A DNA stretch of 42,279 nt from Candidatus Cloacimonadota bacterium (GTDB lineage Bacteria; Cloacimonadota; Cloacimonadia; Cloacimonadales; TCS61). This document shows, piece after piece, positions 1,251 through 41,721 of the stretch. Location of the stretch: NCBI GenBank assembly GCA_021157525.1, contig JAGGWK010000078.1, forward strand, positions 1 to 42,279, read 5' to 3'. A program made the translations under genes and the position numbers. A model generated the notes under the pieces. The model was not told where the DNA came from. It saw only the letters and a program-made list of their open reading frames with translations, and made no database searches. Every line of letters starts with the position of its first letter. Position 1 is the stretch's first letter.

Positions 1251-1956
1251 TATATTCTTCCGCTGCCGCCAAGTCTTGGGGAGTGTCGATGCCAATGGCA
1301 GTGTAGGCGGTTTTTATCATCCTGATGCGATAGCCGTGTTCCAGCAGCCGTAACTGTTCCAGTTTTTCCCACCGTTCCAGAGGTGTTGGTGCCAGCCGGG
1401 TAAAGGCCAACAGCACATCCTTGCGATAGGCATACACGCCTATGTGCTTGAAATAAGCAGCAGAACCGGCTGCATCCCGATCGAAGGGAATGGCAGCCCG
1501 GGAAAAATAGAGAGCATTTCCATCGCAATCACACACCACTTTTACGGCGTTGGGATTCGCCACATTATCATGTATTGGATGCATCAAGGATGCTACATCC
1601 ACGGCGGGATCGGCAAATACCGCCACCAGTTCTTTCAGCGGTTGGGTGGCGATAAAGGGTTCATCCCCCTGCACATTTACCACCACATCCACTTCCATAT
1701 CCTGCACCACTTCGGCGATGCGATCGGAGCCGCTGGGATGGGAAGTTCGGGTAAACACCGCTTCGCCACCAAAGTTTTTTACCGTATCAAAAATCCGCTG
1801 ATCATCGGTGGCGACGATGACGGCGTCGAAAAAATCGCATCCTGTCACCCGCTGAAAAACATGTTGGATAATGGGTTTTCCATCCAGCAAAGCAAGGGGC
1901 TTTCCGGGGAAACGGGTTGAAGCATAACGGGCTGGAATAACGGCGATAACTTTCAT
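1231..1956 (-). CDS. kdsB: 3-deoxy-manno-octulosonate cytidylyltransferase (CMP-KDO synthetase)
   Basis: Activates KDO with CTP to CMP-KDO and pyrophosphate in the cytoplasm, the step that supplies KDO to the lipopolysaccharide inner core. The 241 residues match the usual family length. The N-terminus carries the nucleotide-binding signature PARYASTRFPGKPL, followed by the conserved HVFQRV, VATDD, RTSHPSGSDRIAEV and VNVQGDEPF blocks. The ATG start overlaps the end of the upstream lipoprotein gene by 4 bases, implying translational coupling. It is the last gene of a mnmG-lipoprotein-kdsB unit and ends inside its own terminator hairpin. It indicates that the organism makes a KDO-containing outer membrane. 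Confidence 0.97.
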   Translation of the reverse strand: MKVIAVIPARYASTRFPGKPLALLDGKPIIQHVFQRVTGCDFFDAVIVATDDQRIFDTVKNFGGEAVFTRTSHPSGSDRIAEVVQDMEVDVVVNVQGDEPFIATQPLKELVAVFADPAVDVASLMHPIHDNVANPNAVKVVCDCDGNALYFSRAAIPFDRDAAGSAAYFKHIGVYAYRKDVLLAFTRLAPTPLERWEKLEQLRLLEHGYRIRMIKTAYTAIGIDTPQDLAAAEEYIKKGRN

Positions 1957-2747
1957 TTACGATCCATCACGACTTCTACATACACAAAGTACGAGAGCAG
2001 AGAATTGGCGATCTGAGCTTCCACATGAGAGCGGGAGACGCACATTTTTCCTACCCTTATCCGGGTTTCCACGGAGATCTTTTTTTCAACCTTGGTGCCG
2101 GTGGATATCACGCCGCCCATCACCTCTTTCTCCAGATATTGGGCGATATTTTGCCGGGCTGCATCCATGGCTTTGTCCCACGCCAAAATCATATCGGAAG
2201 AGCGCCCGAAGGCCCGGGAAATTACCTGAGTGTCGGTGAGTTTCAGCCCCAGATCATCAGCCCAGGATGGTCGTGGTTGGGTGGTTTCTGCAGTCCATTG
2301 TTCTCCCACAGATGTTGCGGTGGTGGAGTAAAGACCAATATAATTTTCGTAGTAGGTGCATTCGTCCACCAAGTTGAGGGCGTTGAATTTTTGTTTGAGT
2401 AATTGGGGAGAGGCTGATACCACAAGATTGAAGTGGGCACTTCCGCTGGAAAGCATCTGAGAGCTGTTTGCCGTGGCGGTGTTTACTATGGCGATAGCAT
2501 CGGTATTGCGGCTGAGATTTACTGCTGCGCTCTGTTTGGCTGCATCCTGCATGGCGGCGGGGTTTTTGGTTTTGTGGGAGAGGCCGATCACATAGTTACC
2601 AGTTGGCCGCTGATACATCCAGCGGGGGAGGGGCATGGTTTTCATCTGCTTGAGGGCGAGCTCGTTTTTTTCTTTGTACGAGCCCTGATGGGTGATGCAT
2701 CCTGCCAGAAGCAGCAGGCAAAAAGCGCCGAAGAAAATTCGTTTCAT
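1953..2747 (-). CDS. Outer-surface lipoprotein, LPP20-like, unknown function
   Basis: The first residues MKRIFFGAFCLLLLAGC form a lipoprotein signal peptide with lipobox LAGC, so the mature protein should be a lipid-anchored envelope protein of about 248 residues. An ATG six bases upstream (2751-2753) is also in frame, but the AGAGG Shine-Dalgarno abuts it and sits six bases from the ATG at 2745-2747, so the latter is chosen. The body has a stretch IGLSHKTKNPAAMQDAAKQSA and a second Ala-rich segment WDKAMDAARQNIAQYLEKEV, resembling LPP20-type lipoproteins. It overlaps kdsB by 4 bases and follows mnmG without a gap. The lipoprotein nature is sure; the LPP20 relation is tentative and no function is proposed. 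Confidence 0.85.
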   Translation of the reverse strand: MKRIFFGAFCLLLLAGCITHQGSYKEKNELALKQMKTMPLPRWMYQRPTGNYVIGLSHKTKNPAAMQDAAKQSAAVNLSRNTDAIAIVNTATANSSQMLSSGSAHFNLVVSASPQLLKQKFNALNLVDECTYYENYIGLYSTTATSVGEQWTAETTQPRPSWADDLGLKLTDTQVISRAFGRSSDMILAWDKAMDAARQNIAQYLEKEVMGGVISTGTKVEKKISVETRIRVGKMCVSRSHVEAQIANSLLSYFVYVEVVMDRK

Positions 2748-2749
2748 AA

Positions 2750-4736: not shown

Positions 4737-6260
4737 ATGGCAAAAAAAGAAAAAACTGCAATTACGCCGACTCGCCAAGAGAACTATCCTGGCTGGTATC
4801 AGCAGGTGGTAAAGGCTGCAGATTTAGCTGAAAATAGTGAAGTGCGGGGATGTATGGTCATAAAGCCCTGGGGTTATGGGATTTGGGAAAACATACAGAG
4901 AACTCTGGACGATAAATTTAAGGCAACCGGACATGTGAATGCCTATTTTCCCCTTTTCATTCCAAAGAGTTATTTTGAAAAAGAAGCAGAACATGTAGAA
5001 GGCTTTGCCAAAGAGTGTGCGGTGGTAACCCATTCACGGCTGGAAGACGATGGCCATGGCGGCTTGAAACCGGCTGGCAAACTCACGGAAGAGCTCATCG
5101 TGCGTCCCACATCAGAAACCATTATCGGTGCCTCCTTTGCCAAGTGGGTGAGCTCCTATCGCGATCTGCCTCTGCTCATCAATCAATGGGCAAACGTGGT
5201 TCGGTGGGAACTGCGCACCCGGCTGTTTTTACGCACTACCGAGTTTTTGTGGCAAGAAGGCCATACCGTTCATGCATCCAGCCAGGAAGCTCAGGATGAA
5301 ACAATGATGATCTTGAAACTCTACGCCGATTTTGCCCGGGAATATCTGGCTATGCCGGTGATCGAGGGGCGGAAAACCGAATCGGAAAAATTTCCCGGTG
5401 CCGAAGCTACCTATACCTTTGAAGCGATGATGCAGGATAAAAAAGCACTTCAGGCCGGAACGTCTCACTTCCTTGGCCAGAAATTTGCCAAAGCATCCAA
5501 TATAAAATTTCAGAGCAAAGAGGGGGTTGAAGAATTTGCCTGGACCACCTCCTGGGGCGTAACCACCCGTCTGATCGGTGCCCTGATAATGACCCATGGG
5601 GACGATAACGGCGTTGTTTTGCCACCGCGGATAGCGCCGGTACATGTAGTAGTGGTGCCCATTTATCGCAATGAAGAAGAGCAGAAAACCGTGATGGCCT
5701 TTGTGCAGGAACTGGAAGATGCTCTCAAAGATATGCGGTATCACGAGCGGGCTTTGCAGGTGAAGGTGGATGACCGGGATCTGCGAGGCGGCGAGAAGGT
5801 GTGGGAATGGATCAAAAAAGGTGTTCCGGTCAGGTTGGAAGTGGGGCCACGAGATGTGGCTGCCGCATCGGTATTTATGGGACGGCGGGACATGGAGCCG
5901 CGGCAGAAATCCGGCATGAAAATGACCGACTTTGTGGAAAACGTCACCGGCATCCTGGACGAAATCCAGAACAATATTTTTAAAAAAGCAGAAACCTTCA
6001 TGAATGAAAACATCATTTCCATGGATGATCATGATGTTTTCTGTGACTATTTTACCCCCAAAAACGCAGAAAACCCCGAAATCCACGGCGGCTTTGCGTT
6101 GGCTCACTGGTGCGGAGATGCATCCTGCGAGGAGAACGTGAAAAAAGACCTGAAAGTGACGATTCGCTGCATCCCGCTGGCACAAGAAGCTGAAGAGGGA
6201 CGCTGCATCGTGTGCGGGAAACCCAGTACAAAACGCGTGATTTACGCAAAGAGTTATTGA
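4737..6260 (+). CDS. proS: Prolyl-tRNA synthetase, archaeal/eukaryote-like (type 3)
   Basis: Charges tRNA-Pro with proline. At 507 residues it lacks the inserted editing domain of the long bacterial enzyme and follows the archaeal/eukaryote-like plan. Class II motifs are visible: RPTSE near residue 123, motif 2 RTRLFLRTTEFLWQEGHT, and motif 3 TSWG followed by GDDNGVVLPPRIAP. After the anticodon-binding domain comes the extra C-terminal domain, with cysteines in WCGDASCEE and CIVCGK and a terminal Tyr, typical of this type. The ATG at 4737 is chosen over one at 4722 because GGAG lies nine bases before it. The S4-CinA gene follows at once. Confidence 0.96.
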   Translation: MAKKEKTAITPTRQENYPGWYQQVVKAADLAENSEVRGCMVIKPWGYGIWENIQRTLDDKFKATGHVNAYFPLFIPKSYFEKEAEHVEGFAKECAVVTHSRLEDDGHGGLKPAGKLTEELIVRPTSETIIGASFAKWVSSYRDLPLLINQWANVVRWELRTRLFLRTTEFLWQEGHTVHASSQEAQDETMMILKLYADFAREYLAMPVIEGRKTESEKFPGAEATYTFEAMMQDKKALQAGTSHFLGQKFAKASNIKFQSKEGVEEFAWTTSWGVTTRLIGALIMTHGDDNGVVLPPRIAPVHVVVVPIYRNEEEQKTVMAFVQELEDALKDMRYHERALQVKVDDRDLRGGEKVWEWIKKGVPVRLEVGPRDVAAASVFMGRRDMEPRQKSGMKMTDFVENVTGILDEIQNNIFKKAETFMNENIISMDDHDVFCDYFTPKNAENPEIHGGFALAHWCGDASCEENVKKDLKVTIRCIPLAQEAEEGRCIVCGKPSTKRVIYAKSY

Positions 6261-6261
6261 T

Positions 6262-7086
6262 ATGAAATTTTGGTTAGATAGAGGCGATTCGATTTTTTTG
6301 TATCAGCTGCTCAAAGCTGCTGGTGTGGAAAATGATTACACCAGGATAAAGTACATTATAGATCGGGGATTTGTGCAGGTAAACGGCGAAAATGTGTTTT
6401 CCCAACGGTATGAAGTAAAAAATGGTGATGTGGTTACCTATAAACAGCGGGTGGTCGAGGGGGAAGAGATAACCTTTGTTATGCATCACATCAAGGTGCT
6501 GGATCGGCGTCAGGAAAATCTGCCGGCCAGTGAAAAAGCCATAGGTAACGTGCGTCATGGCAAGATGAAAGCCTGGAAGGCAAAGCCTCTGACAAGCGAG
6601 CTGGAGTTGGATAAAAGCATTGAGCAAACCACTTTGAAAATCCATGCAAGTCTTCAGAACAAAAAGCTTACCCTTGCGCTGGCAGAATCTTGCACAGGAG
6701 GAATGGTTCAGGAAGTCATCACTCGGCATTCGGGATGCTCAGTCTATTTTCTGGGGGGCATTGTGAGCTATTCCAACGGCATTAAGCAGAATGTTCTGGG
6801 CGTGCCCGGTGAGATTTTGGAGCAACATGGTGCCGTGAGCATGGAAACCGCAGAAGCCATGGCGGCAGGATGCAAAAAGCTTTTTGGTTGCGACATCGCA
6901 GGAGCCGTAACCGGTATTGCCGGGCCCGATGGAGGCAGTGAAGAAAAACCGGTTGGTACCGTACATTTCGCCATAGCAGTGGAAGACAAAGTCATCTCCC
7001 GGATGGTAGAGCTCAGCGGAGATCGGGAATCCATCCGCAAACAGGCAACCTTGCGTCTTTTACGCTTTATTGCTTCCCGATGCTAA
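6262..7086 (+). CDS. Fusion of S4-like RNA-binding domain with CinA/PncC-type NMN amidohydrolase domain
   Basis: The 274-residue protein has two parts. Residues 11-62 look like a small S4 RNA-binding domain: FLYQLLKAAGV, TRIKYIIDRGFVQVNGE, YEVKNGDVVTYK. A linker of about 50 residues follows. Residues 120-274 are a CinA C-terminal domain with AESCTGGM (141-148), GGIVSYSNGIKQNVLGV, GAVSMETAEAMA and GIAGPDGG then KPVGTVHFA. That domain deamidates nicotinamide mononucleotide to nicotinate mononucleotide (PncC) in pyridine salvage. The usual N-terminal CinA pyrophosphatase domain is absent. The frame is continuous, with no stop or shift at the junction. The gene starts one base after the proS stop, so it is likely co-expressed. 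PncC activity is inferred; the role of the S4 part is unknown. Confidence 0.88.
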   Translation: MKFWLDRGDSIFLYQLLKAAGVENDYTRIKYIIDRGFVQVNGENVFSQRYEVKNGDVVTYKQRVVEGEEITFVMHHIKVLDRRQENLPASEKAIGNVRHGKMKAWKAKPLTSELELDKSIEQTTLKIHASLQNKKLTLALAESCTGGMVQEVITRHSGCSVYFLGGIVSYSNGIKQNVLGVPGEILEQHGAVSMETAEAMAAGCKKLFGCDIAGAVTGIAGPDGGSEEKPVGTVHFAIAVEDKVISRMVELSGDRESIRKQATLRLLRFIASRC

Positions 7087-7151
7087 TTTAACCTTGTCAA
7101 AAAACGAGCAATACCCCCAAATGCTCACCTATAAATTTGGAGAATATCAAC

Positions 7152-10100
7152 ATGTTGCGTAAGTGTCTTGTATTGTTGTCTTTGGCTCTTGTAGTATCTG
7201 TAGCGGCGCTGCCGGTAACAGTGGTGGATCAATCGGAATCACAACTGATTCTTCGCTTTGAATTACCCGAGTATCATCTGGAAAAGGTTATTTTTGATGG
7301 AAACGAATTTCAGCAGATAATCTGTGCTGATGCTGATTATTCCAGTGAACCGGGATATCCGCAGATGCCATTTTTCTCTGCATCTCTGGGGTTGCCGGTA
7401 GATGGTGATTTCAGGGTTACCGTTCAGGATGTCCATACCAAAGACGTCTCCTGCGGTACCATCGTGCCTGTTTCCCGGATGGTAGAGGATGGCGATGATA
7501 TCTCAACGGTCGTGGTTCCAGATCCCGCAGCATATCGCTCCCGTCAGTTGTACCCGGGGAAGCGCATCCGCAAAGGAACTGCGGCATTTTTGGGAGACCG
7601 CCATTTCAATTCCATCAATATCAATCCATTTCAATATAATGCCAGAGACGGCGTTCTTACCGTTACCACGGAGATGACGCTGCGGGTGAACATCATCGGT
7701 GTGGAAAATGCATCCAGAGGATATGCTGATGGCTCCAATTTTATCGATGCCATCGGCGATGATTTTTTCCTGAACAATCGATTTTCTTCTTTGTGGCGCA
7801 AACCACGGGAAAAAGCCACACAAACTGCTTCTACCCGCGAAACGACCATCACCCGGTTTCAGTTGGTGGTGGATACCGAGGGGGTGTACAAGATTACGCG
7901 CCAAGACCTGGAAGATGCCGCAGATGCCGATACTTCCGGGGTTTTGCTGGGTTTTGACTGGGATACCGTCGATCCCCGTAAGTTAGAGCTCACCGATTAT
8001 CGCGGCACGGTACCACTCTATTTTCCCGGTGAATCCGATGGGCAATTTGATGCCGATGATTATTTCGAATTTTTCGGTGATCGCCATTATGGTGATAATG
8101 AGTACACTGATGATTACACTGCCGAAAACGTCTATGTCCTTACAGTCACCGATCACTTGGGTAGCCGGCTGGCGGTTGAAAATGGCGGATTGGAAGTGAC
8201 TGATCCCGGGCTGTTTACCGTCCCGGAATCCTATCAGCAAACCTTGCATTTTGAAGAGCAAAATCTGATCGATCAGTTGGGGATTCAGACAACCTATAAT
8301 CCCTATTTTTACAAGGAAGACATCTATTTTTGGGATCGCATCTCCGCACCTGATTTGGCCACTTATTCCTTCAATCTGGAATATCCCGAGGATGTGGATC
8401 GCCGCAAATTTTCTGTGGATTGTTCCCTCTGGGGTGCGACGTACTCCTTATGGTATCCCGGCGGCCCGATTAACCTCAATGCGATAGACCACTATGCCAT
8501 CGTGCGGGTGAATGCATCCAGAGTGGATATACACCAATGGAACGGCCAGCGAGAACAGCGTTTTACCAGCGAAAATGAGCTTTCCAATAATTACCTCAAC
8601 AATGGAGAAAATCTGTTGTATGTGAGCCTTCCCGGGCTTCCCGATGCGCCTTATGAGCAGGTATTGCTGGATTATTTTGACCTTACCTATTGGCGCCAAT
8701 ATAAAACCGACAGCGATTATCTGCGCTTTACCAAGCCACAAAACAAGCCTGTGGGTCTGTTCCAGTTTGAACTGGAAAATTTTTCATCACCGGATATTTC
8801 GGTGTACAAACGTGGCTCGGGGATCATGGAAAACATCCAGATCGAACCCTTTTTCGAGCCCAATGGCGCTCCTTTCAAAGTGACGTTTCAAGATACGGTA
8901 ATCAGTCCCAATGCCGAATATATCGCCGTTACCGAGGCGCAGAAAAAGAAGCCGTTACGCATTATGCTGGATGTACCTTCACAGTTGCACGGTGCCATGA
9001 ATCAGGCCGATTATGTGATCATTACCATCCCGGAATTTGTGCAGGATGCCGGTACCCAGGCGCTGCGAGACATTTGGCAGCAGCAGGGAAAAGCCGTGGA
9101 AGTGGTGAGTGTGCAAGACATCTTCGATGAATTCAATGGGGGCGTGCGCTCTGCCGAAGCCATCAAAGATTTTATCTCCTATGCCTATAACAACTGGGCT
9201 GAGCCACGGCTTACCCATGTGCTTTTGTTAGGGGATGGCATCACAGACGAGCGGGACGACAGCCCGAATCGCAGCTATAATCTGATACCCTTCCACAAGA
9301 TTTGGGCGGATAAACGCGGAGCCATCGCCAGCGACAACTGGTTTGGATGCATCGTAGGGACAGACATGGTTCCCGATGTAAGCATCGGCAGGATAAATGT
9401 GTGGAAAGCGAGTCAACTTGAAGACATTGCCGCCAAAACCATTCAATACATCGAAGAGCCCAATTACGAAGATTTGTGGCACAGCAATATCACCTTTGCT
9501 GCCGGGGGAAATCCCAGTGAAGGTACCTTCTTTGCCAAGCAAAGTGAACGCGTGCGTAAGAACAATATTCCTTCCAGTTTCAATGCCACACGGGTGTATT
9601 GCAATACCGATGACTTACCTGCATCCTATGCCGGGAATACCACTACCCTTATCAGCACCATTAACGATGGCAGCATATACGTACAGTTTATGGGTCATGG
9701 CGGCGGCTATGTGTGGGCTGACTACAACCTGCTGAATAAAGCGGATGTGCAAACCATGAACAACGAAAATCTGCCTGTGGTAGCAAGTTATTCCTGTTTC
9801 GGTTCAGCATTTAACTATCCCCAGAGCTCGTGCATTGGCGAAGAATTGACACTTGCTCCCGGCAAAGGCGCTATCGGTCATATTGGTTTCACAGGTTTTG
9901 GCTACGCCAATTGGATTGATGATTTTGCCAAATATATTACCGAGGGGATGTTCCGGTACGGCGTGGAATCCATCGGTGAAATTGTGACCTACGCCAAAGC
10001 AAAATTCTATACCTCATCCAGTTCGTACGCGGTAAAAAATGCTCTGATAAACGGATGTGCTTACTTGGGCGATCCGATGATACATATGCTGATTCCCACC

Positions 10101-12194
10101 GAAGAACGGCAGGTACTGCTGAATGACTACACGGTTCAGGAGGGTGACACCCTTATCTTTAAATCCCCGGTGGGTGATGGGATAACCAAAGGAAAATTCA
10201 GAATTTATGATGATGATGACAGCCCCATTTCGGCAAATTTTTATTATCCCGAAACGATTTACGCCATCAACGACACCATCTCCATTACCAATGGCAATCT
10301 CTACAAAAATGGCTACACCATGCCCAACGCTACGTCAGATATTTACACCCGCAGAATCAAACTGTTTGCATCCGGCGATGATGGCGAAATTGTTGGAGAA
10401 ACCTATGTGACCGTTGGAAAAGGGAATGCGGCAAACATCGCTATCATTCCCGAACAGCCGACGGTGGCGGATTCCATCCAGATAGAAGCCGATATCTTTG
10501 ATGACGAAGGAGTGGCTGCTGTGGCATGCCAGGTGAAGGTGTGGAGCGTGTACGCCGATCCCTTCAATCCCGAACATACTCCATCGGGTATCTATACCAT
10601 TCCCATGACGCAGGTGGCAAATAATCGCTATCGCTTGCAGCAACCCATTTCCTCCGGGGCGCAAAACTACTCCAGCGGCTACAAATTGGAGATCGATTTC
10701 ACCATTACCGACGACCAGCAACAGGTGGAAACTACCACCTTCCGACGAATGATTCTCATCGAAGGCATCGACCTGACCCTGCAAAATCTGAACTTTGTAG
10801 AGCAGGATAATCAACCGGCAATCAAGGTGCTGGTAACCAATCTCGGCTCCGAGTCTGGCAGCGCCTGCATGCTGAAAGTGTACAACCAGGTGGGAGGTCA
10901 TACCCTTCTGGCACAAAAAGAAATCGCGCCACTTGGCACCTTCGAATCCCGCTGGGAAACCCTCATCATTCCGTTATTGAGCGGATCGGTGCAGTTCCAG
11001 GCCCTGGTGAATGACTCTGGCGAAAGCTTCCCGGAAATCAACCTTTACAATAACATCGTTACCGGCGTACATCAAGAAGTAAACCTGGTGTCCGCCGGCC
11101 TCGCAGCCTCCGCCTTCTCCAGTCTGGATGGTAACCTGGATGTGCAGATTCCCGCGGCAATCCTGCCTCAGGATGCAGTCTTTTCTCTGCAAAATATCGG
11201 GATGCAAACCCCGGTGAATCAGGAAGCGGTGAGCGGAATTATCCTGGCAGACAGCAGTCGCTCCGATGCGTATCAATTGAAGATTTACAACGAAGAGATG
11301 TTGGCCGATTCTACGGGATTGCTGCCAAACAACAACCGCATCGAGCTGACTTTTCACTACCATCCCACCGATTCCCTCACCCAGGTTGGCACCGATGCCT
11401 ATGCTGTTTATCGCTGGGAAGATGATTTTGATAAATGGATCTTTTACGGTGGCGAGGTGTACCCCGATGCCAAAACAGTGCGCTTCAATACCAACCGGCT
11501 GGGAACGTTTACCATCCTGAAAAATGCTGACGAAATCCCTCCCTACATCGACGCCAATGTGGAAGGCCAGGAATTCACCTACGGCGGGTACATCTCTCGC
11601 AACGGCATTATCTCGTTCCTCCTCTCAGACGCAAACGGTATCGACATGTTTAACAATAAGCTGCATCTTGCACTGGATGGTGAGACGGTGAGTGCAGAAG
11701 AGTATTCAATCTCCCTTTCTCAGGGAAATCTCACCAACATTCCCATCAAATATCAGTTGAACAATCTGGACAAAGGCAGCCACAAAATCAGTGTGGATTG
11801 CACCGATTGCAACGGAAATTATGCGGTGCGGGAAATCGATTTTGAGGTGAGCACCTCCTTCGATATTATCAATGTGGCCAACTACCCAAACCCCGTGAAG
11901 TCGAAAACCATCAAGGCGGTAAACGCCGGGCGAACCCGCTTTACCTACGTTCTTACCGATGATGCCGACGATGCAACGATAAAGGTGTACACTGTGAGCG
12001 GACGCCTGGTGAAGACCTTTAAGCATATTCCCTCCACCATCGGATATCATGAATTTCCCCGCACCGTAAGTGGCTGGGATTGTACTGATGAAGAGGGATT
12101 TAACCTGTCAAACGGTGTCTACTTTTACAAAATAACTGCCAAACGCGGCTCGAAGAAAATAGAAAAAATAAAAAAAATGGCGATCTTGAAGTAA
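7152..12194 (+). CDS. porU: PorU-like type IX secretion sortase, gingipain (C25) peptidase family
   Basis: A 1680-residue exported protein with signal peptide MLRKCLVLLSLALVVSVAALP. The ATG at 7152 has GGAG nine bases upstream; an in-frame TTG at 7137 includes that site and is rejected. The catalytic region resembles gingipain/PorU: His849 in FMGHGGGY and Cys882 in ASYSCFGSAF, 33 residues apart as I recall for RgpB and PorU. Other family blocks are VLLLGDG, SDNWFG, VSIGRI and GAIGHIGFTGFG. The end (from NVANYPNPVKSKT) is a FlgD-like sorting-tail domain. PorU cleaves the tails of type IX substrates at the outer membrane and attaches the proteins to the surface. The length is well above the roughly 1150-1300 of Bacteroidota PorU, with extra beta-sandwich domains after the protease. 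PorV follows directly. Function is inferred from motifs and context. Confidence 0.85.
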   Translation: MLRKCLVLLSLALVVSVAALPVTVVDQSESQLILRFELPEYHLEKVIFDGNEFQQIICADADYSSEPGYPQMPFFSASLGLPVDGDFRVTVQDVHTKDVSCGTIVPVSRMVEDGDDISTVVVPDPAAYRSRQLYPGKRIRKGTAAFLGDRHFNSININPFQYNARDGVLTVTTEMTLRVNIIGVENASRGYADGSNFIDAIGDDFFLNNRFSSLWRKPREKATQTASTRETTITRFQLVVDTEGVYKITRQDLEDAADADTSGVLLGFDWDTVDPRKLELTDYRGTVPLYFPGESDGQFDADDYFEFFGDRHYGDNEYTDDYTAENVYVLTVTDHLGSRLAVENGGLEVTDPGLFTVPESYQQTLHFEEQNLIDQLGIQTTYNPYFYKEDIYFWDRISAPDLATYSFNLEYPEDVDRRKFSVDCSLWGATYSLWYPGGPINLNAIDHYAIVRVNASRVDIHQWNGQREQRFTSENELSNNYLNNGENLLYVSLPGLPDAPYEQVLLDYFDLTYWRQYKTDSDYLRFTKPQNKPVGLFQFELENFSSPDISVYKRGSGIMENIQIEPFFEPNGAPFKVTFQDTVISPNAEYIAVTEAQKKKPLRIMLDVPSQLHGAMNQADYVIITIPEFVQDAGTQALRDIWQQQGKAVEVVSVQDIFDEFNGGVRSAEAIKDFISYAYNNWAEPRLTHVLLLGDGITDERDDSPNRSYNLIPFHKIWADKRGAIASDNWFGCIVGTDMVPDVSIGRINVWKASQLEDIAAKTIQYIEEPNYEDLWHSNITFAAGGNPSEGTFFAKQSERVRKNNIPSSFNATRVYCNTDDLPASYAGNTTTLISTINDGSIYVQFMGHGGGYVWADYNLLNKADVQTMNNENLPVVASYSCFGSAFNYPQSSCIGEELTLAPGKGAIGHIGFTGFGYANWIDDFAKYITEGMFRYGVESIGEIVTYAKAKFYTSSSSYAVKNALINGCAYLGDPMIHMLIPTEERQVLLNDYTVQEGDTLIFKSPVGDGITKGKFRIYDDDDSPISANFYYPETIYAINDTISITNGNLYKNGYTMPNATSDIYTRRIKLFASGDDGEIVGETYVTVGKGNAANIAIIPEQPTVADSIQIEADIFDDEGVAAVACQVKVWSVYADPFNPEHTPSGIYTIPMTQVANNRYRLQQPISSGAQNYSSGYKLEIDFTITDDQQQVETTTFRRMILIEGIDLTLQNLNFVEQDNQPAIKVLVTNLGSESGSACMLKVYNQVGGHTLLAQKEIAPLGTFESRWETLIIPLLSGSVQFQALVNDSGESFPEINLYNNIVTGVHQEVNLVSAGLAASAFSSLDGNLDVQIPAAILPQDAVFSLQNIGMQTPVNQEAVSGIILADSSRSDAYQLKIYNEEMLADSTGLLPNNNRIELTFHYHPTDSLTQVGTDAYAVYRWEDDFDKWIFYGGEVYPDAKTVRFNTNRLGTFTILKNADEIPPYIDANVEGQEFTYGGYISRNGIISFLLSDANGIDMFNNKLHLALDGETVSAEEYSISLSQGNLTNIPIKYQLNNLDKGSHKISVDCTDCNGNYAVREIDFEVSTSFDIINVANYPNPVKSKTIKAVNAGRTRFTYVLTDDADDATIKVYTVSGRLVKTFKHIPSTIGYHEFPRTVSGWDCTDEEGFNLSNGVYFYKITAKRGSKKIEKIKKMAILK

Positions 12195-14158: not shown

Positions 14159-14674
14159 ATGAAACGAATTGCCCTGATTTTATCTGTTCTTTTATTGGCA
14201 GGACAGGTGGTATTTGGCGAGACACCGGATGCTGCATCCAGTGTTGCGCCCACCATGACCTCCCCCGGATCTTTTAATAATGGCTCGGTATATCTCTATT
14301 CCGGAACCCTTTCCGGTTCTGAGCAGCTGAAGATTATCACCTACATCTGGGGACAAGTGCAAAAACCAGGACTCTATGTTGTTCCTGATGATACCGATTT
14401 ACTCACGCTGCTTTCGTCGGCAGGAGGGCCTACCGAAGATGCTAAGCTGTCGAAAGTCCGCATCATCCGTCCCACCGAAGATGGTGAGAAGATCATCTGG
14501 GTAAATCTGAAGAAGTACATGGAAACGGGAGACAGTCAGCTGATCCCTCAGATGAAACCGGGAGATACGGTAATTGTTTCCGGATCGATTTTTTATGCTT
14601 TCACCCGTACGGCAGATTTCTTATCGAAAGTGGCATCGGTCATTAGTGTGTATATATTAATTAACAACATATAG
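14159..14674 (+). CDS. SLBB-domain polysaccharide export-type protein
   Basis: 171 residues starting with signal peptide MKRIALILSVLLLAGQVVFG. The ATG at 14159 has AGGAG five bases upstream; a longer frame from 14132 would bury the signal peptide and is rejected. Residues 60-140 form one SLBB (beta-grasp) domain: YIWGQVQKPGLYVVP, LLTLLSSAGGPTEDA, VRIIRP, MKPGDTVIVSG. The N-terminal Poly_export domain of Wza-like proteins is missing. A hydrophobic C-terminal stretch VASVISVYILI could be a membrane helix. Immediately upstream of the Wzc-like kinase, it is likely the periplasmic or outer-membrane partner in polysaccharide export, but too short to form a full Wza channel. Confidence 0.83.
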   Translation: MKRIALILSVLLLAGQVVFGETPDAASSVAPTMTSPGSFNNGSVYLYSGTLSGSEQLKIITYIWGQVQKPGLYVVPDDTDLLTLLSSAGGPTEDAKLSKVRIIRPTEDGEKIIWVNLKKYMETGDSQLIPQMKPGDTVIVSGSIFYAFTRTADFLSKVASVISVYILINNI

Positions 14675-16984: not shown

Positions 16985-17789
16985 GATTAATCTCTTTTTA
17001 GATGTTTTAGGAAAACGTCCGGATGGATATCATTCCATTCGGACTATTTTTGCTGAAATTGATCTCCATGATCAACTAAATTATACTTTGACAAAAAATC
17101 GGGACATCAGGATTTTGGCCAACAGAGACTTTGTAAATACAGAGGATAATTTAATTTACAAAGTCGCGTTCTTTATACAACAGCAATATAACGTGAAATA
17201 TGGTGTATCGATAGAACTTACGAAACGGATTCCTGTTGCCGCCGGTTTGGGTGGTGGATCCAGTGATGCAGCAGCAACCATCAAAGCGGTTTCTGCCCTG
17301 TGGAGGCTCGATTTGTCTCAGGATGCAATGCATGAAATTGCTTCCCGTTTTGGGAGCGATATCAACTTCTTTCTGGATGGAGGTACTTCCCTGGGTGTGG
17401 GCCGCGGCGAGAAGCTGAGTCCTCAGGATGACCTGGATGTATCCCATATCTTCTTGGTCAACCCCGGCTTTGGCATCCCCAGTGGAGAGGCCTACGGCAT
17501 GGTGGAAGACATGCATCCTGAAGAAAGATGGAAAAACCTGCTACAGACTCATGATATGCGCTATGCATTTAACAGGTTGCAAATAGGGATTTGTAAAGCG
17601 TACCCGGAAATTATGACCATTATCCGCCATTTGGAGAATAATGGAGCAGAAAAAGCTATTTTATCGGGTAGTGGACCTACCATTATTGGTTTTTGCCCCG
17701 ATAGGGCTACCGCAGAAAGTCTTTCCGAGTTCTATTCCAATCAAGGCTATTGGAACTACATAACAAAGACAAAAAGGAGAACAAGATGA
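16914..17789 (+). CDS. ispE: 4-diphosphocytidyl-2-C-methyl-D-erythritol kinase
   Basis: GHMP-family kinase that phosphorylates CDP-methylerythritol with ATP in the non-mevalonate route to isoprenoids. From the ATG at 16914 it is 291 residues, close to the usual 280-300. Motifs: NAKINLFLDVLGKRPDGYHSI at the N-terminus, the ATP loop VAAGLGGGSSDAAA, and ILSGSGPTIIGF near the end. The frame is open upstream with GTG codons at 16872 and 16878, but those would translate the kinase's repeat as a Thr/Ile stretch unlike the family. There is no clear Shine-Dalgarno at any candidate, so coupling to the kinase gene, which it overlaps by 71 bases, is likely. It overlaps spoVG by 4 bases. The enzyme is sure; the exact start is not. 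Confidence 0.93.
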   Translation: MKAQRINAEKNLSKKAISTTANAKINLFLDVLGKRPDGYHSIRTIFAEIDLHDQLNYTLTKNRDIRILANRDFVNTEDNLIYKVAFFIQQQYNVKYGVSIELTKRIPVAAGLGGGSSDAAATIKAVSALWRLDLSQDAMHEIASRFGSDINFFLDGGTSLGVGRGEKLSPQDDLDVSHIFLVNPGFGIPSGEAYGMVEDMHPEERWKNLLQTHDMRYAFNRLQIGICKAYPEIMTIIRHLENNGAEKAILSGSGPTIIGFCPDRATAESLSEFYSNQGYWNYITKTKRRTR

Positions 17790-23631: not shown

Positions 23632-24282
23632 ATGAGAAAAATACTGATTGCACCCTCGCTTCTTTCTGCAGATTTTATGCATCTGGAGCGGGAGATACAG
23701 AACATAGAGGCAGCTGACGCAGACATCTTGCACCTGGATGTGATGGACGGGCATTTTGTGCCGAACCTTACCTTTGGGATGCCGATTATACGCCAGATAC
23801 GCGCCCTTACCAAGCTTCCCCTGGATGTGCACCTCATGGTGCAAAATCCGGGAGATTATTATCAGCCTCTGGCTCAATGCGGCGTGGAGTATGTTTCCTT
23901 CCATCAAGAAGCAGTTACCCATATTCATCGGCATATCTATGTGCTACGGGATGCAGGAATTCAGGCTGGGATTGCTCTCAATCCGGCAACGCCGATCAGC
24001 ACCATCCAGCCTGTTTTGCCCGATCTGGATTTTGTGCTGTTTATGAGCGTGAACCCCGGTTTTGGCGGCCAGAAATTTCTCCCTCTGGTGTATGATAAAA
24101 TCACTCAGGCACGACTTCTGACATCCAATATAAATCCTACACTGAAGATCGAGATCGATGGAGGGGTAACCGATGCCAATGCAGAGGCTCTGATCGATGC
24201 TGGCGCCGATATGTTGGTGGCCGGTTCCCATATCTTTGGCAATCCCGATTATACCCGGGCAATCGCATCATTACGACAATAA
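23632..24282 (+). CDS. rpe: Ribulose-phosphate 3-epimerase
   Basis: Interconverts ribulose 5-phosphate and xylulose 5-phosphate in the pentose phosphate pathway. 216 residues, a TIM barrel with APSLLSADF, HLDVMDGHFVPNLTFG (metal and catalytic Asp), LDVHLMVQNP, FMSVNPGFGGQKF and IDGGV then AGADMLVAGS. Length and blocks are typical. It lies nine bases before ffh. Confidence 0.97.
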   Translation: MRKILIAPSLLSADFMHLEREIQNIEAADADILHLDVMDGHFVPNLTFGMPIIRQIRALTKLPLDVHLMVQNPGDYYQPLAQCGVEYVSFHQEAVTHIHRHIYVLRDAGIQAGIALNPATPISTIQPVLPDLDFVLFMSVNPGFGGQKFLPLVYDKITQARLLTSNINPTLKIEIDGGVTDANAEALIDAGADMLVAGSHIFGNPDYTRAIASLRQ

Positions 24283-28410: not shown

Positions 28411-28419
28411 CAGGATGCA
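28411..28419 (+). repeat. Intergenic copy of the CAGGATGCA word
   Basis: One of 16 exact copies of this 9-mer in the window (both strands) and one of two not clearly explained by coding. It follows the T-run of the rplS terminator after two bases. See the finding on this word for all positions and caveats. Confidence 0.6.
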
Positions 28420-28456: not shown

Positions 28457-30427
28457 TTACAAAAGCCCCCAGCGCTTACGCAAAAGCCACTCACCAGAAA
28501 ATCCACCGATAAACAACAGGATGATATACCACTTTCGGTATAGCGGTATCCTATGCTCCCTTTGTGATGAGCTGATCTCCGCCTGAGGAAATGATGCATC
28601 CTGCAAGACACGACCACCGGTTGTGGTAGCGATAAACCGCAGCATGGCGTCATTGATACCCATATCCCGTACTTCAGGACTCTGGGGTAAAATAACGAAG
28701 GCAGTACTGTCGGAAGCACCAGAAGCATCGTCTGTGGCCGTCACGCGATAGGAGCCAGCCGCCAAATCCCTCAGGGAAATACTATATCCATCGGCGGAGG
28801 GAACAAAATAATCAGCCACCACAAGGGAGTCACCGCGACATATCTCTGCCAGAGCAGTGATGTTCTTTACTGGCTGCAATGCTTCATTATAGGCATGCAA
28901 TGTGATATCAACAGACTCGCCTAAAAAATAGGCTGGCTGTGATGCTTGCACGGCAAAACGCTGGGTTGATGTCGCTGCCAAATATTGAAACAGGCCATCA
29001 ATCAGGGAGGAAAAACCACTGTCCCCTTCACGCAATTGCCACCGCCACAAATCCACAAAACAAAACTGCATTATGGTGCCTTGACCAAAGACGCGCCGGA
29101 CTATCGCCGGGCTTCGCCGGTCGTTGTTTATGGTAGCGAGGAGGGAGCTTTCCAGACGAGGACGAGTGTACCAGTAGGTAACGGGAGGAATGGTTTCAGC
29201 AGCAGAAAAGGCTGAGAAAATATCGATCTCTTTGCCAGCTGAACTGATGGTGAAGGTAGATGAAAAGGCACGGGAGATCCCCGACATAGTTGCTGGATTC
29301 AGTTGATCCAGACTGGGAACCGGTTTACCACAAAGCATCAGTCCGGTACCCTGTTGAACTCGTTGCGAGAGCAGTGAAACCTGCGATGCATCAAAGTTGA
29401 GATCCTGTGAGTTTACAACACAAATCACGGCAGCAGACGCGATATACGATGCCAGCTCAACCGATGTATTTCCCAGCCACCAGCCCTTATGATATCGCAG
29501 CACAGTGGCATCCCAATGGGGATTTTTGCCAATGGCATCCTTGATAAATTTAACATCCCACTGCAATTGATCGGTAAGGATAAGCATGTTTTCCCTGGCG
29601 GTGATCACCTGAATTGCACCGGAATAACGGTTGTTATTCACCGAGGCTTCCTGAAGAGAATCTGCCCAGATACGAGCAGTAAATTGCTGTAAGCCGGAAG
29701 TGATAAATTGTGGTGACAGTAAGAGTTGCTGAATCGGATTTTGAGAAAAATCGACCTTCTGAGAAAGCTCCTGCGCTGCAGCCCACTGCAGGGTAACGGT
29801 GGCTTCTCCCCGGTAATTTTCTGCAGTGAGAGTGAGTGCAATAGGCGTCTCGTCCTGCTGATAGGTGGTCTGATTATACTGCATGTCGTCGATGGCGAGA
29901 TCCGCCTGAGTTGCCGGATTTTCCGGAATAATCACATCGATGGGAACCGGTGACGTGAGGATAGCATCCAAATTTTCGTCTTTGAGGTAGCCATCTGAAG
30001 CCAGCAAAATGCGGGAAAGGGGCTGCAACTTTTCATCGGTCAGGATGCTCTGTAATGTCGGCACCAAAAGAGTTGACTGGCCATAGCCGGGCTCAGGAAA
30101 ATCCCGGTATGTAAGGGTATAGCCAGCATCTTGAGCTGCTTTAGCGGCCAGGTTGGATGCATCCTGCCAAAGGTTGTACTTGGGTTTGCCTGCAGTGATG
30201 ATAACCATACTTTGGGAACGGTCTTGCAAAAACACCATCTGCTCCGGCGTGCGGGACGTGGTGAAAAAATGAAGGATCGGATTGAACAAAAGTATGAGTA
30301 AAATGGCAAGGCTCAGTCCCCTGAGACCAGCCAGCGCCAAGCGCTGTCTGGTAGAAACGGGTGGCTGAGTACTGCGATAATACCACCATGAAACAACGAT
30401 GGCAATGACGATAAAAATCAGAATCAT
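28457..30427 (-). CDS. VWA-domain membrane protein (BatA/glutamine-amidotransferase-like architecture)
   Basis: 656 residues. Two N-terminal membrane helices (ILIFIVIAIVVSWWYY and LRGLSLAILLILLF) are followed by a von Willebrand A-like domain with the metal-site motif DRSQS (MVFLQDRSQSMV). Beta-rich periplasmic segments come next, then a stretch resembling the class I amidotransferase-like part of related proteins (VSLLSQRVQQGTGLMLCGKP). A last helix YIILLFIGGFSGEWLLRKR lies near the C-terminus. Proteins of this plan are common in Bacteroidota and Planctomycetota, with no firm function. It overlaps the radical SAM gene by 4 bases and ends the minus-strand fab operon. Confidence 0.8.
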   Translation of the reverse strand: MILIFIVIAIVVSWWYYRSTQPPVSTRQRLALAGLRGLSLAILLILLFNPILHFFTTSRTPEQMVFLQDRSQSMVIITAGKPKYNLWQDASNLAAKAAQDAGYTLTYRDFPEPGYGQSTLLVPTLQSILTDEKLQPLSRILLASDGYLKDENLDAILTSPVPIDVIIPENPATQADLAIDDMQYNQTTYQQDETPIALTLTAENYRGEATVTLQWAAAQELSQKVDFSQNPIQQLLLSPQFITSGLQQFTARIWADSLQEASVNNNRYSGAIQVITARENMLILTDQLQWDVKFIKDAIGKNPHWDATVLRYHKGWWLGNTSVELASYIASAAVICVVNSQDLNFDASQVSLLSQRVQQGTGLMLCGKPVPSLDQLNPATMSGISRAFSSTFTISSAGKEIDIFSAFSAAETIPPVTYWYTRPRLESSLLATINNDRRSPAIVRRVFGQGTIMQFCFVDLWRWQLREGDSGFSSLIDGLFQYLAATSTQRFAVQASQPAYFLGESVDITLHAYNEALQPVKNITALAEICRGDSLVVADYFVPSADGYSISLRDLAAGSYRVTATDDASGASDSTAFVILPQSPEVRDMGINDAMLRFIATTTGGRVLQDASFPQAEISSSQREHRIPLYRKWYIILLFIGGFSGEWLLRKRWGLL

Positions 30428-31413: not shown

Positions 31414-32147
31414 AGCAGCTGCAAAGATTCGCAGGCTGCTTTGGCGGCCGCTTGCTGTGCCGCCTTTTTGTTGGGCCCTGTACCGGTGCCCAGGCACTGA
31501 TCATCCAAAAATACACCAACCACAAATTCCTTATGGTGGTCTGGGCCGTGTTCTTCAACAATGCGATATTGCGGCAATTGATGGGATTGGCCCTGAAGGT
31601 GCTCCTGCAGCGTGCTTTTAAAGTTTACCAGCGGATCTTTGGTAACCAGGGAAAGATAATCTTTCATGATACACTGGGTGATGAAGGTGCGGGCGTCTTT
31701 GATGCCGCCATCCAGATAAATAGCGCAAATGATGCTTTCCATGGTGTTTGCCAAAATGGAAATGGATGTTTTTCCTCCGCTGGAGGATGCCTCTTCACTG
31801 AGAAAAATGTACTCACCCAGATCAAATTGTCGGGCGATCATGGCCAGGTATTTGCGGGAAACGATCTTCGCTTTGAGTTTGGAAAGTTGCCCTTCATTGT
31901 AGAAAGGATAGCGAATAAAGAGCTCTTCCGAAACCACCAGGCCAAGGATGGCATCGCCTAAAAATTCCATGCGCTCAAACACCGAGACCTCTTCATCGGC
32001 GGGTGCCAGAGAGGTGTGAGTGATGGCTGCAATGAGAATGTCGGGTTTTTTGAAGTTGTAATTGAGACGCTTTTCAATCTCTCGGATGGAAGGGATATCA
32101 CCTTTCAGTCGCGTGTTTGCCAGAATGAGATTCAGTATTTTTTTCAC
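31410..32147 (-). CDS. rnc: Ribonuclease III
   Basis: Cuts double-stranded RNA in rRNA and mRNA processing. About 245 residues: an endonuclease domain with the signature ERMEFLGDAILGLV, and a C-terminal dsRNA-binding domain (KSTLQEHLQGQ, ending GPNKKAAQQAAAKAACESL). The start is ambiguous: a TTG at 32154-32156 has no spaced Shine-Dalgarno, while the GTG at 32145-32147 has GGGA about ten bases upstream and is chosen. A perfect hairpin lies 14 bases upstream. The radical SAM gene overlaps its end by 4 bases. Confidence 0.94.
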   Translation of the reverse strand: MKKILNLILANTRLKGDIPSIREIEKRLNYNFKKPDILIAAITHTSLAPADEEVSVFERMEFLGDAILGLVVSEELFIRYPFYNEGQLSKLKAKIVSRKYLAMIARQFDLGEYIFLSEEASSSGGKTSISILANTMESIICAIYLDGGIKDARTFITQCIMKDYLSLVTKDPLVNFKSTLQEHLQGQSHQLPQYRIVEEHGPDHHKEFVVGVFLDDQCLGTGTGPNKKAAQQAAAKAACESLQLL

Positions 32148-32155
32148 AGGATGCA
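32147..32155 (+). repeat. Copy of the CAGGATGCA word at the 5' edge of rnc
   Basis: Exact copy lying just upstream of the chosen rnc GTG start (it would be within the first codons if the TTG start were used). It belongs to the over-represented word family described in the findings. Confidence 0.55.
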
Positions 32156-32192: not shown

Positions 32193-33437
32193 TTATTGAT
32201 ATTTTTTAAAGATGAGTACGCCGTTGTGTCCACCAAAGCCCAGGGAATTGTTCAGGGCATAGGTTACCTCTTTTTTTACAGCGGTGTTTGGCGTGAAATT
32301 CAGATCACAATCGGGATCTGGCGATGTCTGATTTGTGGTAGGATGGATGATACCCGTGTTGATGGTTTTGCAGCAAACAATGGCTTCCATACCGGCGGCA
32401 GCTCCCAGAGAATGACCTACCATCGACTTGGTCGAATTGATGGATACCTCTTTGGCATGGTCGCCGAAAACGGATTTTATAGAAGCTGTTTCGTTTTTGT
32501 CATTGAGTGGAGTAGATGTGCCGTGAGCGTTTATGTAGTCAATATCTTCGGGTTTGATGCCAGCATCTTTGATGGCCATCTGCATGGCTCGTGCTCCGCC
32601 TTCTCCGCCAGGTGACGGTGCGGTGATGTGATAGGCATCACAGGTGGCGGCATATCCTACAATCTCGGCATAGATTTTTGCGCCACGAGCCCGGGCGTGT
32701 TCCAGCTCTTCCAATACCAATACGCCGGCACCTTCGGCCAACAGGAAACCATCCCGTTCCTTATCGAAGGGTCGGCAGGCTGCTGTGGGGTCGTCGTTTC
32801 TGGTACTCAATGCTTTTAATGAGCAAAAACCAGCCAGGGTGAGAGGTGTGACCGAAGCTTCTGCGCCACCACTCAGCATGATGTCGGCATCGCCATATTG
32901 AATTGCACGGAAGGCAGTACCCATGGCATGATTTGCCGAAGCGCAGGCAGAGGTGACATTGAAATTCATACCCCGGAATTGAAACTCGATAGCAACTTCA
33001 GCTGATGCTGCGTTGGAGATCATCTTTGGAACGAAAAATGGGCTTACGCGTCGGGGGCCGGAAAGGGCCAGTTTAACGGCTTCGGTTTCATAGGTAAACA
33101 TCCCACCTATACCGGAGGCAATGATCACACCAGCGCGGTCGTGATTAAACTCAGCATCTATCAGGGCTGCATCCTGTACTGCCTGACGTGCAGACACAAG
33201 TGCAAACTGGGTATAGCGATCAAGCTTTTTAATTCGTTTCTTTTCGAAGTGTTCACGAGGGTCAAATCCCTTCACTTCACCGCCTATGCGGCTACTGAAG
33301 TCATTAGTTACATCAAAGGATTTGATGTGATCTATGCCTGATGTACCGGCAACGAGCTTTTCCCATGATTCTTCTACGGAATTTCCTACCGAAGACAGCA
33401 TACCTAATCCCGTGATGACAACTCTTCGCTTACTCAT
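32193..33437 (-). CDS. fabF: 3-oxoacyl-ACP synthase II
   Basis: Elongating condensing enzyme of fatty acid synthesis, joining malonyl-ACP to acyl-ACP. 414 residues. The catalytic triad is visible: Cys165 in TSACASANHA, His305 in NAHGTSTPLND and His342 in KSMVGHSLGAAAGM. The N-terminus RRVVITGLGMLSSVG is typical. GAGG precedes the ATG. It lies after acpP, separated by a hairpin with a T-run. Confidence 0.98.
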   Translation of the reverse strand: MSKRRVVITGLGMLSSVGNSVEESWEKLVAGTSGIDHIKSFDVTNDFSSRIGGEVKGFDPREHFEKKRIKKLDRYTQFALVSARQAVQDAALIDAEFNHDRAGVIIASGIGGMFTYETEAVKLALSGPRRVSPFFVPKMISNAASAEVAIEFQFRGMNFNVTSACASANHAMGTAFRAIQYGDADIMLSGGAEASVTPLTLAGFCSLKALSTRNDDPTAACRPFDKERDGFLLAEGAGVLVLEELEHARARGAKIYAEIVGYAATCDAYHITAPSPGGEGGARAMQMAIKDAGIKPEDIDYINAHGTSTPLNDKNETASIKSVFGDHAKEVSINSTKSMVGHSLGAAAGMEAIVCCKTINTGIIHPTTNQTSPDPDCDLNFTPNTAVKKEVTYALNNSLGFGGHNGVLIFKKYQ

Positions 33438-34507: not shown

Positions 34508-35447
34508 TATTCTGCTCCAGATATTCTTTTACCGCAACAACATCCGCTGGGGTGTCGATGCTGAGGACTTTTGCTTTTCTATCGATTTTTTTCATCATAC
34601 CGGCCAATACACGATTTGGGCCAAACTCGATAAAGAGTTCAATGCCCTGAGCCAGCATAAATTCCATGGTATCCACCCATAAAACCGAAGAAGTAACCTG
34701 TTTCACCAGGTTTTCTTTGATGGTTTTAGGATCGGTTTCCGGTTTGGCATGAACGTTTTGTACCACTGGGATGGTGGGGGTGGCGAAGTTGATGTTTTCC
34801 ATTTCTTCCCGGAGCCATGTTCCGGCTTTTTGTACCAGAGGTGAATGGAAGGGGCCACCCACGGTGAGGGGAATCACCCGTTTTGCACCAGCTGCTTTGG
34901 CCAGCTCAGATGCTTTGGTAACGCCGGCAAGGGAACCGGAAATCACGGTTTGCACAGGAGTGTTAAAATTGGCAGCGATCACGATTCCTGCATCCTGTGC
35001 CTGGACGCAAATCTCTTTTACCGCCTGAGGTGTGAGGCCAACGATAGCGGCCATCCCAAAGGGAGTATCGCCATTAGCATTCATCATAAATTCACCCCGT
35101 TTGTGTACCAGATGCATGGCATCTGGCAGAGTGAGAGTGCCGTTTGCAACCAAGGCAGAAAATTCTCCCAGGGAATGACCTGCCACGAAGGCGGGCTCGA
35201 AATCGATGGCATCCTGCAGAGCTGCATAGGCGACAGCACTGTGAAATAAAATGGCGGGTTGTGTGAATCGGGTCTCTTTTAATGCTTCTTCAGGACCCTG
35301 GAGCATGATGCTTTGCAAGGATGTTCCGTGGGCCTGGTCAAAAGCTTCCATTACCGCTTTCAGCCGGGCATTACCAGCGATGTAATCGGCTGCCATGCCT
35401 ACATATTGGGCGCCTTGACCAGGGAAAATACAGGCTATTTTCTTCAT
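34500..35447 (-). CDS. fabD: Malonyl-CoA:ACP transacylase
   Basis: Loads malonyl groups onto ACP. 315 residues: FPGQGAQYVGMA near the start, the active-site serine in AGHSLGEFSAL (Ser92), and the His motif GGPFHSPLV. The ATG has a weak AGGA upstream, directly after the fabH stop. It overlaps fabG by eight bases. Confidence 0.98.
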   Translation of the reverse strand: MKKIACIFPGQGAQYVGMAADYIAGNARLKAVMEAFDQAHGTSLQSIMLQGPEEALKETRFTQPAILFHSAVAYAALQDAIDFEPAFVAGHSLGEFSALVANGTLTLPDAMHLVHKRGEFMMNANGDTPFGMAAIVGLTPQAVKEICVQAQDAGIVIAANFNTPVQTVISGSLAGVTKASELAKAAGAKRVIPLTVGGPFHSPLVQKAGTWLREEMENINFATPTIPVVQNVHAKPETDPKTIKENLVKQVTSSVLWVDTMEFMLAQGIELFIEFGPNRVLAGMMKKIDRKAKVLSIDTPADVVAVKEYLEQNNG

Positions 35448-35456
35448 GTTTTTGTC

Positions 35457-37730: not shown

Positions 37731-37758
37731 GTTTTTTGAAACTGAATGAGGCTCAGTC

Positions 37759-40423: not shown

Positions 40424-41721
40424 TGGTGGGCTTTGCTTTCCCACAGGATGGCGTGCCATATAGCTTCTACCGTGGTGGGGCTGAGGTTGAGCAAGCGAGC
40501 TTTTTCATGCAGGGATGCAAACAGCATTTCCTCCCGGGTGCCATCGAAGATGGGTGCGCCGGTAGCAGCTTTCAGGGCGCCGATGTGGGCCGATATCTGC
40601 ATCCGCCGATACAGTGCCATGAGGATGTCTTCGTCTATTTTATCGATGGATTCCCGCAATTGTGCCAGTGTGGCCGATTCGCCGGAAATCAGACGTTGGT
40701 GCGCGATGGCATCTGCCAAAACCAGTTTGCACATGGCTTCGATCACCGGGATGATGCGGGGAATGATGCAGGTGTCGTGGCGGCCATTTATCTGGATGGA
40801 AACAGCGTCTCCCTGGCGGTTTGCGGTACGCTGGGGTATGCCGATGGATGGTGTGGGTTTTATCACGCACCGAAAGACGATTTTTTCCCCGGTGCTGATG
40901 CCTCCCAGAATGCCGCCATTGTGATTACTCAAAAATCCACCATCGTCCATCTGGTCGTTGGCCTGTGAGCCATGAAGTGCGCCTAGAGCAAAACCGTCAC
41001 CAAACTCGATCCCTTTGATGCTACCGATGGAGAGCACCGCTTTGGCAAGATTTGCTTCCAGCTTTTCAAATACCGGGTCTCCCAATCCGGCGGGTACACC
41101 GGAGATGACGCATTGAATAATACCTCCCACAGAATTGCCCTGAGATTGTAGTTCTTCCAGATACTGCAGCACATCAGGCAGCGTGTCGGCATCGGGCCAA
41201 TGCAGTGGGTTTGGAGTGTATGCATCCTGATACGATGACGCGTATGAACCGATGCGAAGGGTGGCAAAATGAAAGCTGACAGCGCCGAGGAAGGAATCGG
41301 CAAGGGACGCTGCGGCTACCCGTGCCAGAGTTTCGCGTCCAGAGGCGCGACCGCCTCCCCGATGATCAAAAATCTTAAATTTACTAAACCACGAGAAGTC
41401 GCCGTGGCCGGGGCGGAAGATCTCTTCCAGGGACTGATAATCCCGGGGGTGGGCATCGGTATTTTGAACCAGCAGGCAGATGGGGGTGCCGGTGGTTTTG
41501 CCTTCAAAAACGCCGCTGAGCACCTCTACGGTATCGGCTTCATGGCGAGATGTTGCACCGGGTTTACCAGCAGACTTTCTGCGATTTACTGCATCCTGTA
41601 TGGCGGTAAGGGGGAAGCGGATGCCCGGTATAACGTCATCCAGCACCACGCCCACAGCTTTTCCATGGCTTTCGCCAAAGGTGGTAATGCCATACCACGA
41701 TTGCCAATAATTTGATCTCAT
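40420..41721 (-). CDS. aroC: Fusion of chorismate synthase with AroQ-type chorismate mutase
   Basis: 433 residues. Residues 1-345 are chorismate synthase: ITTFGESHGKAVG, SRHEADTVEVLSG, FDHRGGGRASGRETLARV, EFGDGFALG, NHNGGILGGISTG and IKPTPSI. Residues 350-433 are an AroQ-type chorismate mutase: LAQLRESIDKIDEDILMALYRRMQIS, split over residues 352-377, then IGALKAATGAPIFDGTREE and ALHEKAR-like ASLHEKARLL. The fused protein would turn EPSP to chorismate and then to prephenate, toward Phe and Tyr. The frame is continuous. The ATG at 41721 has GAGG five bases upstream; the open frame to 41799 is rejected. The aroDE gene overlaps its end by 4 bases. Confidence 0.92.
   Translation of the reverse strand: MRSNYWQSWYGITTFGESHGKAVGVVLDDVIPGIRFPLTAIQDAVNRRKSAGKPGATSRHEADTVEVLSGVFEGKTTGTPICLLVQNTDAHPRDYQSLEEIFRPGHGDFSWFSKFKIFDHRGGGRASGRETLARVAAASLADSFLGAVSFHFATLRIGSYASSYQDAYTPNPLHWPDADTLPDVLQYLEELQSQGNSVGGIIQCVISGVPAGLGDPVFEKLEANLAKAVLSIGSIKGIEFGDGFALGALHGSQANDQMDDGGFLSNHNGGILGGISTGEKIVFRCVIKPTPSIGIPQRTANRQGDAVSIQINGRHDTCIIPRIIPVIEAMCKLVLADAIAHQRLISGESATLAQLRESIDKIDEDILMALYRRMQISAHIGALKAATGAPIFDGTREEMLFASLHEKARLLNLSPTTVEAIWHAILWESKAHQ

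Follow-up and report, generated by a model that had tools for sequence, protein, structure and literature searches.

What does the word CAGGATGCA do in a Candidatus Cloacimonadota genome, where it recurs far more often than expected along one contig (C27; 42,279 nucleotides, hereafter the window)? In the gonorrhoea bacterium and in influenza-type bacteria, a short word marks a cell's own DNA so that it is recognized at uptake, and the original prediction for this locus was a signal of a DNA-uptake-like or other genomic kind. We followed the word from the window to the genome and the phylum, and weighed the uptake reading against its rivals.

Occurrence of the word in the window and the genome

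The window contains 16 CAGGATGCA sites against 0.56 expected (sd 0.76), and none of 100 dinucleotide shuffles reached 16. All 16 sites of the original prediction are present, and one of them, given as 17513-17521(-), lies at 17512-17520(-). The shorter CAGGATGC occurs 25 times instead of the 24 counted earlier, the copy at 30041(+) having been overlooked, and a copy placed at 1838 is at 1837. The over-representation of GGATGC was confirmed, with 90 copies where about 80 had been estimated.

The genome (2.23 Mb in 87 contigs, 98.5% complete) is the only one available for its genus (n = 1). It carries 374 copies of CAGGATGCA (192 forward and 182 reverse), compared with three of the control word read backward. 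For CNGGATGCA, the genome total was 1,151, or approximately one per 1.9 kb, and that of its backward-read control was 16. CNGGATGCA is the more general word and a better core than CAGGATGCA; the form first proposed, CAGGATGC(A), is replaced here by CNGGATGCA plus a pyrimidine tract on its 5' side.

In the window, CAGGATGCA is read in sense frame 0 as Gln-Asp-Ala (QDA) at 2541..2549(-), 11169..11177(+), 28595..28603(-), 30158..30166(-), 33168..33176(-) (ketoacyl-ACP synthase gene), 34989..34997(-) (acyltransferase gene), and 41221..41229(-) and 41590..41598(-) (both in the chorismate synthase gene). The site at 17319..17327(+), also in sense frame 0, lies in a GHMP-kinase ORF (16872-17789) that was missed by the gene caller, yet it is counted among the in-frame sites; including it, QDA is encoded by 9 of the 16 copies, where about 13 in-frame copies had been reported. 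Sense frame 1 holds the sites at 2696..2704(-) and, in a CinA-domain gene, 6866..6874(+). Antisense copies are found in the ProRS gene (6119..6127, -), in the GHMP-kinase ORF (17512..17520, -), and at the 5' end of the RNase III gene (32147..32155, +), where a T tract precedes the site. The only intergenic CAGGATGCA site (28411-28419, +) has convergent genes on either side and a T run directly before it. CNGGATGCA sites of the form CGGGATGCA lie in sense frame 0 at 1471..1479(-) and 23947..23955(+), in sense frame 2 at 11198..11206(+), and antisense in the ProRS gene at 6168..6176(-). Those of the form CTGGATGCA are antisense in the ProRS gene (5273..5281, -), twice in the C25-peptidase gene (7709..7717 and 8513..8521, both -), and at 14233..14241(-), and are in sense frame 0 (Leu-Asp-Ala, LDA) at 21793..21801(+) and in sense frame 2 at 23518..23526(+). 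A CCGGATGCA site is antisense in the C25-peptidase gene (10367..10375, -), and an overlapping inverted double site, CCGGATGCATCCTG, occupies 21584..21597 with no strand.

Some genes of the window were noted in addition. The C25-peptidase gene (7137-12194, +) encodes a large gingipain-type enzyme with a propeptide and a FlgD/Por-secretion C-terminal domain. In the product of the gene at 6262-7086(+), an S4 RNA-binding domain is combined with a competence-damage (CinA) domain, to our knowledge an unusual fusion. The chorismate synthase (40420-41721, -) carries a fused type II chorismate mutase domain, and its gene adjoins that for a DHquinase-shikimate dehydrogenase fusion (39023-40459).

Codon and protein bias

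Bias in codon, dipeptide, or base composition might make such a word by itself, as the nine in-frame QDA copies of the window and the presence of some CAGGATGCA copies (2-62) in the other genomes of the order could suggest. The genome was read in stretches (1.72 Mb, later 2.0 Mb), genes were called by a simple hexamer method, and synonymous codons were shuffled genome-wide, keeping every protein and the codon usage. Coding DNA contained CAGGATGCA 258 times compared with 44.6 in the shuffle, and CNGGATGCA 938 times compared with 193, corresponding to 4.9-5.8 times the null. The enrichment of CAGGATGCA extended across all six reading frames (4-20-fold), with observed/expected counts of 101/25, 16/2.0, and 33/1.6 in the sense frames and 26/5.6, 31/7.7, and 51/2.5 in the antisense frames. 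In strict intergenic DNA, defined as DNA without any ORF of at least 60 codons, 24 copies of CNGGATGCA were found against 2.3 expected (approximately 10-fold), and site densities were similar in intergenic and genic DNA. The enrichment outside coding frames that the original prediction called for was thus seen in all six frames and between genes, and the counts did not agree with the codon-aware null, agreement with which would have counted against that prediction.

Among all tripeptides in the proteome, over-representation was strongest for LDA (543 vs. 323) and QDA (259 vs. 125), and 119 of the 259 QDA occurrences are spelled exactly CAGGATGCA. It appears that the DNA word shaped the proteome, and not the reverse. 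Codon or dipeptide bias was rejected on the synonymous-shuffle excess and the enrichment in every frame and in intergenic DNA; in addition, GGATGC-type words occurred at compositional expectation in four relatives (60-140 kb sampled from each), which also argues against such bias. We regard bias of any of these types as a highly improbable source of the word.

Some words without GGATG also exceeded the same synonymous null in coding DNA (2.0 Mb read), namely GCAAAAAGC (104/32), GGTGAGCAA (59/14), GGTAACCAC (61/15), and CCCGGGAAA (80/24).

Anatomy of the core and its flanks

GGATG is near-invariant, its one-base variants occurring at 0.45-1.8 times the shuffle expectation. The flanking C, C, and A are more tolerant, with variants at 1.3-3.3 times the expectation compared with 4.9 times for the consensus. 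A or T is preferred at the second base, and K followed by C C is favored on the 3' side of the core. On the 5' side, positions -11 to -3 are rich in T/C and poor in A/G. The T excess was observed in all six coding classes (0.31-0.38 vs. 0.24-0.28 in the matched background) and was strongest in intergenic sites (0.46-0.47 vs. 0.29).

Overlapping inverted double sites are enriched approximately ten-fold, and the palindromic double site GGATGCATCC occurs 99 times against 7.5 expected in CDS and 12 times against 0.3 in intergenic DNA; double sites are nevertheless a small minority among the 1,151 copies of CNGGATGCA. Inverted-pair terminators of the Neisseria type were not found, as close inverted pairs were almost all overlapping palindromes, and convergent intergenic regions showed no special enrichment of sites.

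Genomic distribution and conservation of the encoded residues

Even spacing of the sites was not seen (CV of 1.10 vs. 1.00 for random placement, i.e., slight clustering), nor was enrichment at both gene ends, the within-gene deciles being weighted to the first half. Relative to composition, site density was 6-7-fold in core DNA and 0-2-fold in windows below 38% GC. The motif-poor low-GC stretches include a polysaccharide locus at the end of contig C16 (glycosyltransferases and a flippase-type protein), a segment of contig C24, possibly a defence island, in which a gene for a caspase-domain protein with WD40 repeats (168-3272) has a DUF4384 gene as its neighbour, and a part of contig C59 with an HsdM fragment close to the contig end. 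A 12.4-kb run of 25 small genes including that for ribosomal protein L2, evidently a ribosomal-protein operon, has no sites at all.

Conservation was compared using 400 kb from four relatives. In alignable proteins, the residues encoded by the motif were 38% identical to those of the relatives compared with 50% elsewhere, and the gene-matched difference in identity between motif and other residues was -0.119 +/- 0.034 (73 alignments). The sites lie where proteins tolerate change, as expected for a word that accumulated in the source lineage.

Occurrence in the phylum

The word is confined to the source genome among the 125 phylum genomes compared, as the largest count of CNGGATGCA in the 124 others was 226, in a 4.1-Mb genome. 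No dominant word or dialect of a comparable type was found in the four relatives sampled. In the first 140 kb of one relative (G040), CATTGCTTAC, TGCTTACCCA, and GCGTAAGCCC were over-represented (12-16 copies); these words overlap one another, which suggests longer dispersed repeats, a different kind of element from single words. A search of mostly open-access literature found no uptake sequence in this phylum, and we know of no culture of the source organism.

Competence genes and type IV pilus

The competence genes that an uptake sequence would call for were found in the same genome. ComEC is encoded by a 771-aa frame (contig C23), DprA is encoded on contig C72, and a ComEA-like protein of 202 aa has two HHH domains (contig C35). 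A type IV pilus operon on contig C82 encodes a pilin, PilT (matching TIGR01420 above the cut-off), PilM, a PilQ-like secretin, PilB, PilC, and the prepilin peptidase PilD. Between the genes for the PilQ-like protein and PilB lies a gene for an Invasin/Big_1 Ig-domain protein (8224-10275, -).

Two further products of the operon are small and basic (pI 9.5 and 9.2) and start like prepilins; judged from these features, they are candidate sequence-specific receptors. Genes for prepilin-like proteins of the operon lie at 16566-17264, 17264-17728, and 18797-19225 of contig C82. The major pilin is acidic. Its match to the ComP_DUS profile is weak, lies below the cut-off, and recurs across the order, in 38 of 105 genomes counting the source; as relatives without the word have the same match, it was set aside as non-specific. 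ComEC is present in 29 of 39 relatives and similar pilins are found across the order in genomes without the word, so that these genes alone fail to explain the specificity. The competence machinery is necessary, not specific.

Proposed explanation and its rivals

The word is real, is a feature of the DNA itself, is genome-wide and orientation-free, and coexists with competence genes. The excess over the codon-aware null, the enrichment in all frames and in intergenic DNA, the competence genes, and the confinement within the phylum agree, and the uptake-like reading of the original prediction is therefore the best one; its uptake function, i.e., preferential uptake, a receptor, and accumulation by biased uptake, is what we infer. 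From the sequence, we consider it fairly probable that this lineage has a DNA-uptake sequence specific to it, CNGGATGCA preceded by a pyrimidine/T-rich tract (approximately 3-11 bases upstream), which works by receptor binding at the pilus, uptake, and accumulation. DNA carrying the word would be bound by a part of the type IV pilus that has a sequence preference, for which a basic minor pilin is plausible, and retraction driven by PilT would draw the DNA through the secretin. The ComEA-like protein and ComEC would then bring it in, and DprA would shield the incoming DNA for recombination. Because tagged fragments would enter preferentially, any mutation that yields a new or better copy of the word would spread by recombination wherever proteins tolerate it.

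The main rival is a HIP1-like repeat, in which the word owes its origin or upkeep to DNA methylation or to mismatch repair with a sequence bias, and not to uptake. The function of the cyanobacterial HIP1, likewise a dense word found genome-wide, is unclear, and HIP1 is linked to methyltransferases (PMC4390886). In the genome studied here, the fully palindromic GGATGCATCC is strongly enriched, and an HsdM fragment and one N6_N4-type methyltransferase are encoded. For a GGATG enzyme such as M.FokI, however, a D12-type methyltransferase would be expected, and none was found in the genome. The core is asymmetric with few double sites, its one-base variants include no single strongly depleted counterpart, unlike what directional repair would leave, and the T/C tract beside it would be unexpected. 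We therefore judge methylation or repair an unlikely origin of the word, although it is the alternative that deserves most attention.

A role as binding sites of some abundant protein of the nucleoid or condensin type, or a different genome-wide function, would suit the frequency of approximately one site per 1.9 kb, the partly palindromic form, and the lack of orientation, and the absence from islands would suit foreign DNA that is still unadapted. No nucleoid protein is known to us to mould a genome so far that tripeptides of its proteome become enriched, however, and intergenic and genic densities are alike; this function is improbable. Still somewhat less probable is a recombination signal like Chi or a polar segregation signal like the KOPS of FtsK. 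Such signals are likewise over-represented short oligomers in coding and non-coding DNA, but they are strongly polar relative to replication and have no T-rich flank. Here, orientation bias was absent, with ratios of 226:234 on the G-rich strand and 137:123 on the dominant gene strand, which is a moderate test as the contigs are unordered and their GC skews weak. Chi/KOPS polarity was rejected on this basis.

Only in two proteobacterial families has a strong uptake preference been described that relies on a genome-wide word (PMC7811141). If the DNA-uptake reading is right, self-DNA tagging would have arisen a third time and would extend beyond Pasteurellaceae and Neisseriaceae. How uptake sequences originate would become a comparative question, with the same selection acting on a different word through a different pilin, and transformation in this organism would be frequent enough to reshape its proteome.

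Comparison with known uptake sequences and HIP1

The word shares several genomic features with the Pasteurellaceae uptake signal sequence (USS) and the Neisseriaceae DNA uptake sequence (DUS): a codon-aware excess, enrichment in non-coding DNA as well as in every frame and in either orientation, restriction to a lineage, absence from islands, tolerant positions, and a competence machinery (a pilus with PilT, ComEC, DprA, and a ComEA-like protein). Its overall anatomy matches that of known uptake sequences and, by this analogy, the word probably acts like one.

HIP1 (GCGATCGC) is likewise a dense genome-wide word of lineage-specific occurrence in cyanobacteria. HIP1 is, however, GC-rich, perfectly palindromic, and tied to orphan methyltransferases, whereas the core described here is asymmetric and has a T/C flank.

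With the DUS (GCCGTCTGAA and its dialects), the word shares hundreds to thousands of copies, lineage specificity, accumulation in permissive core DNA, and a type IV pilus with minor pilins. The words themselves are unrelated, the inverted-pair terminators are peculiar to the DUS in this comparison (compare PMC2346458), and the ComP_DUS similarity in our genome is sub-threshold and belongs to an acidic major pilin common to word-free relatives.

The USS consists of a AAGTGCGGT core and AT-tracts, and in Haemophilus the inner core is crucial while AT-tracts aid uptake (PMC7811141). AAGTGCGGT itself was not enriched in the CDS of our genome (14 vs. 10.7 expected), and the word is unrelated to it and occurs in a different phylum. 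It also differs in having one weak T/C tract instead of two, in lacking even spacing and a bias to both gene ends (compare PMC2346458), and in its palindromic overlapping double sites. In both, nevertheless, the core is on the 9-bp scale, near-invariant at its center and tolerant at its ends, and has an AT/T-rich tract to one side (here T/C, 3-11 bases away in the 5' direction). Both occur about once per 1-2 kb in either orientation, within and outside coding DNA, and are accompanied by a type IV pilus and ComEC. On the best explanation of these data, both the word and the phylum are new for DNA-uptake sequences; it is likely, on balance, that this single genome of a candidate phylum carries an independently evolved uptake sequence with its own core, CNGGATGCA, and its own T/C tract.
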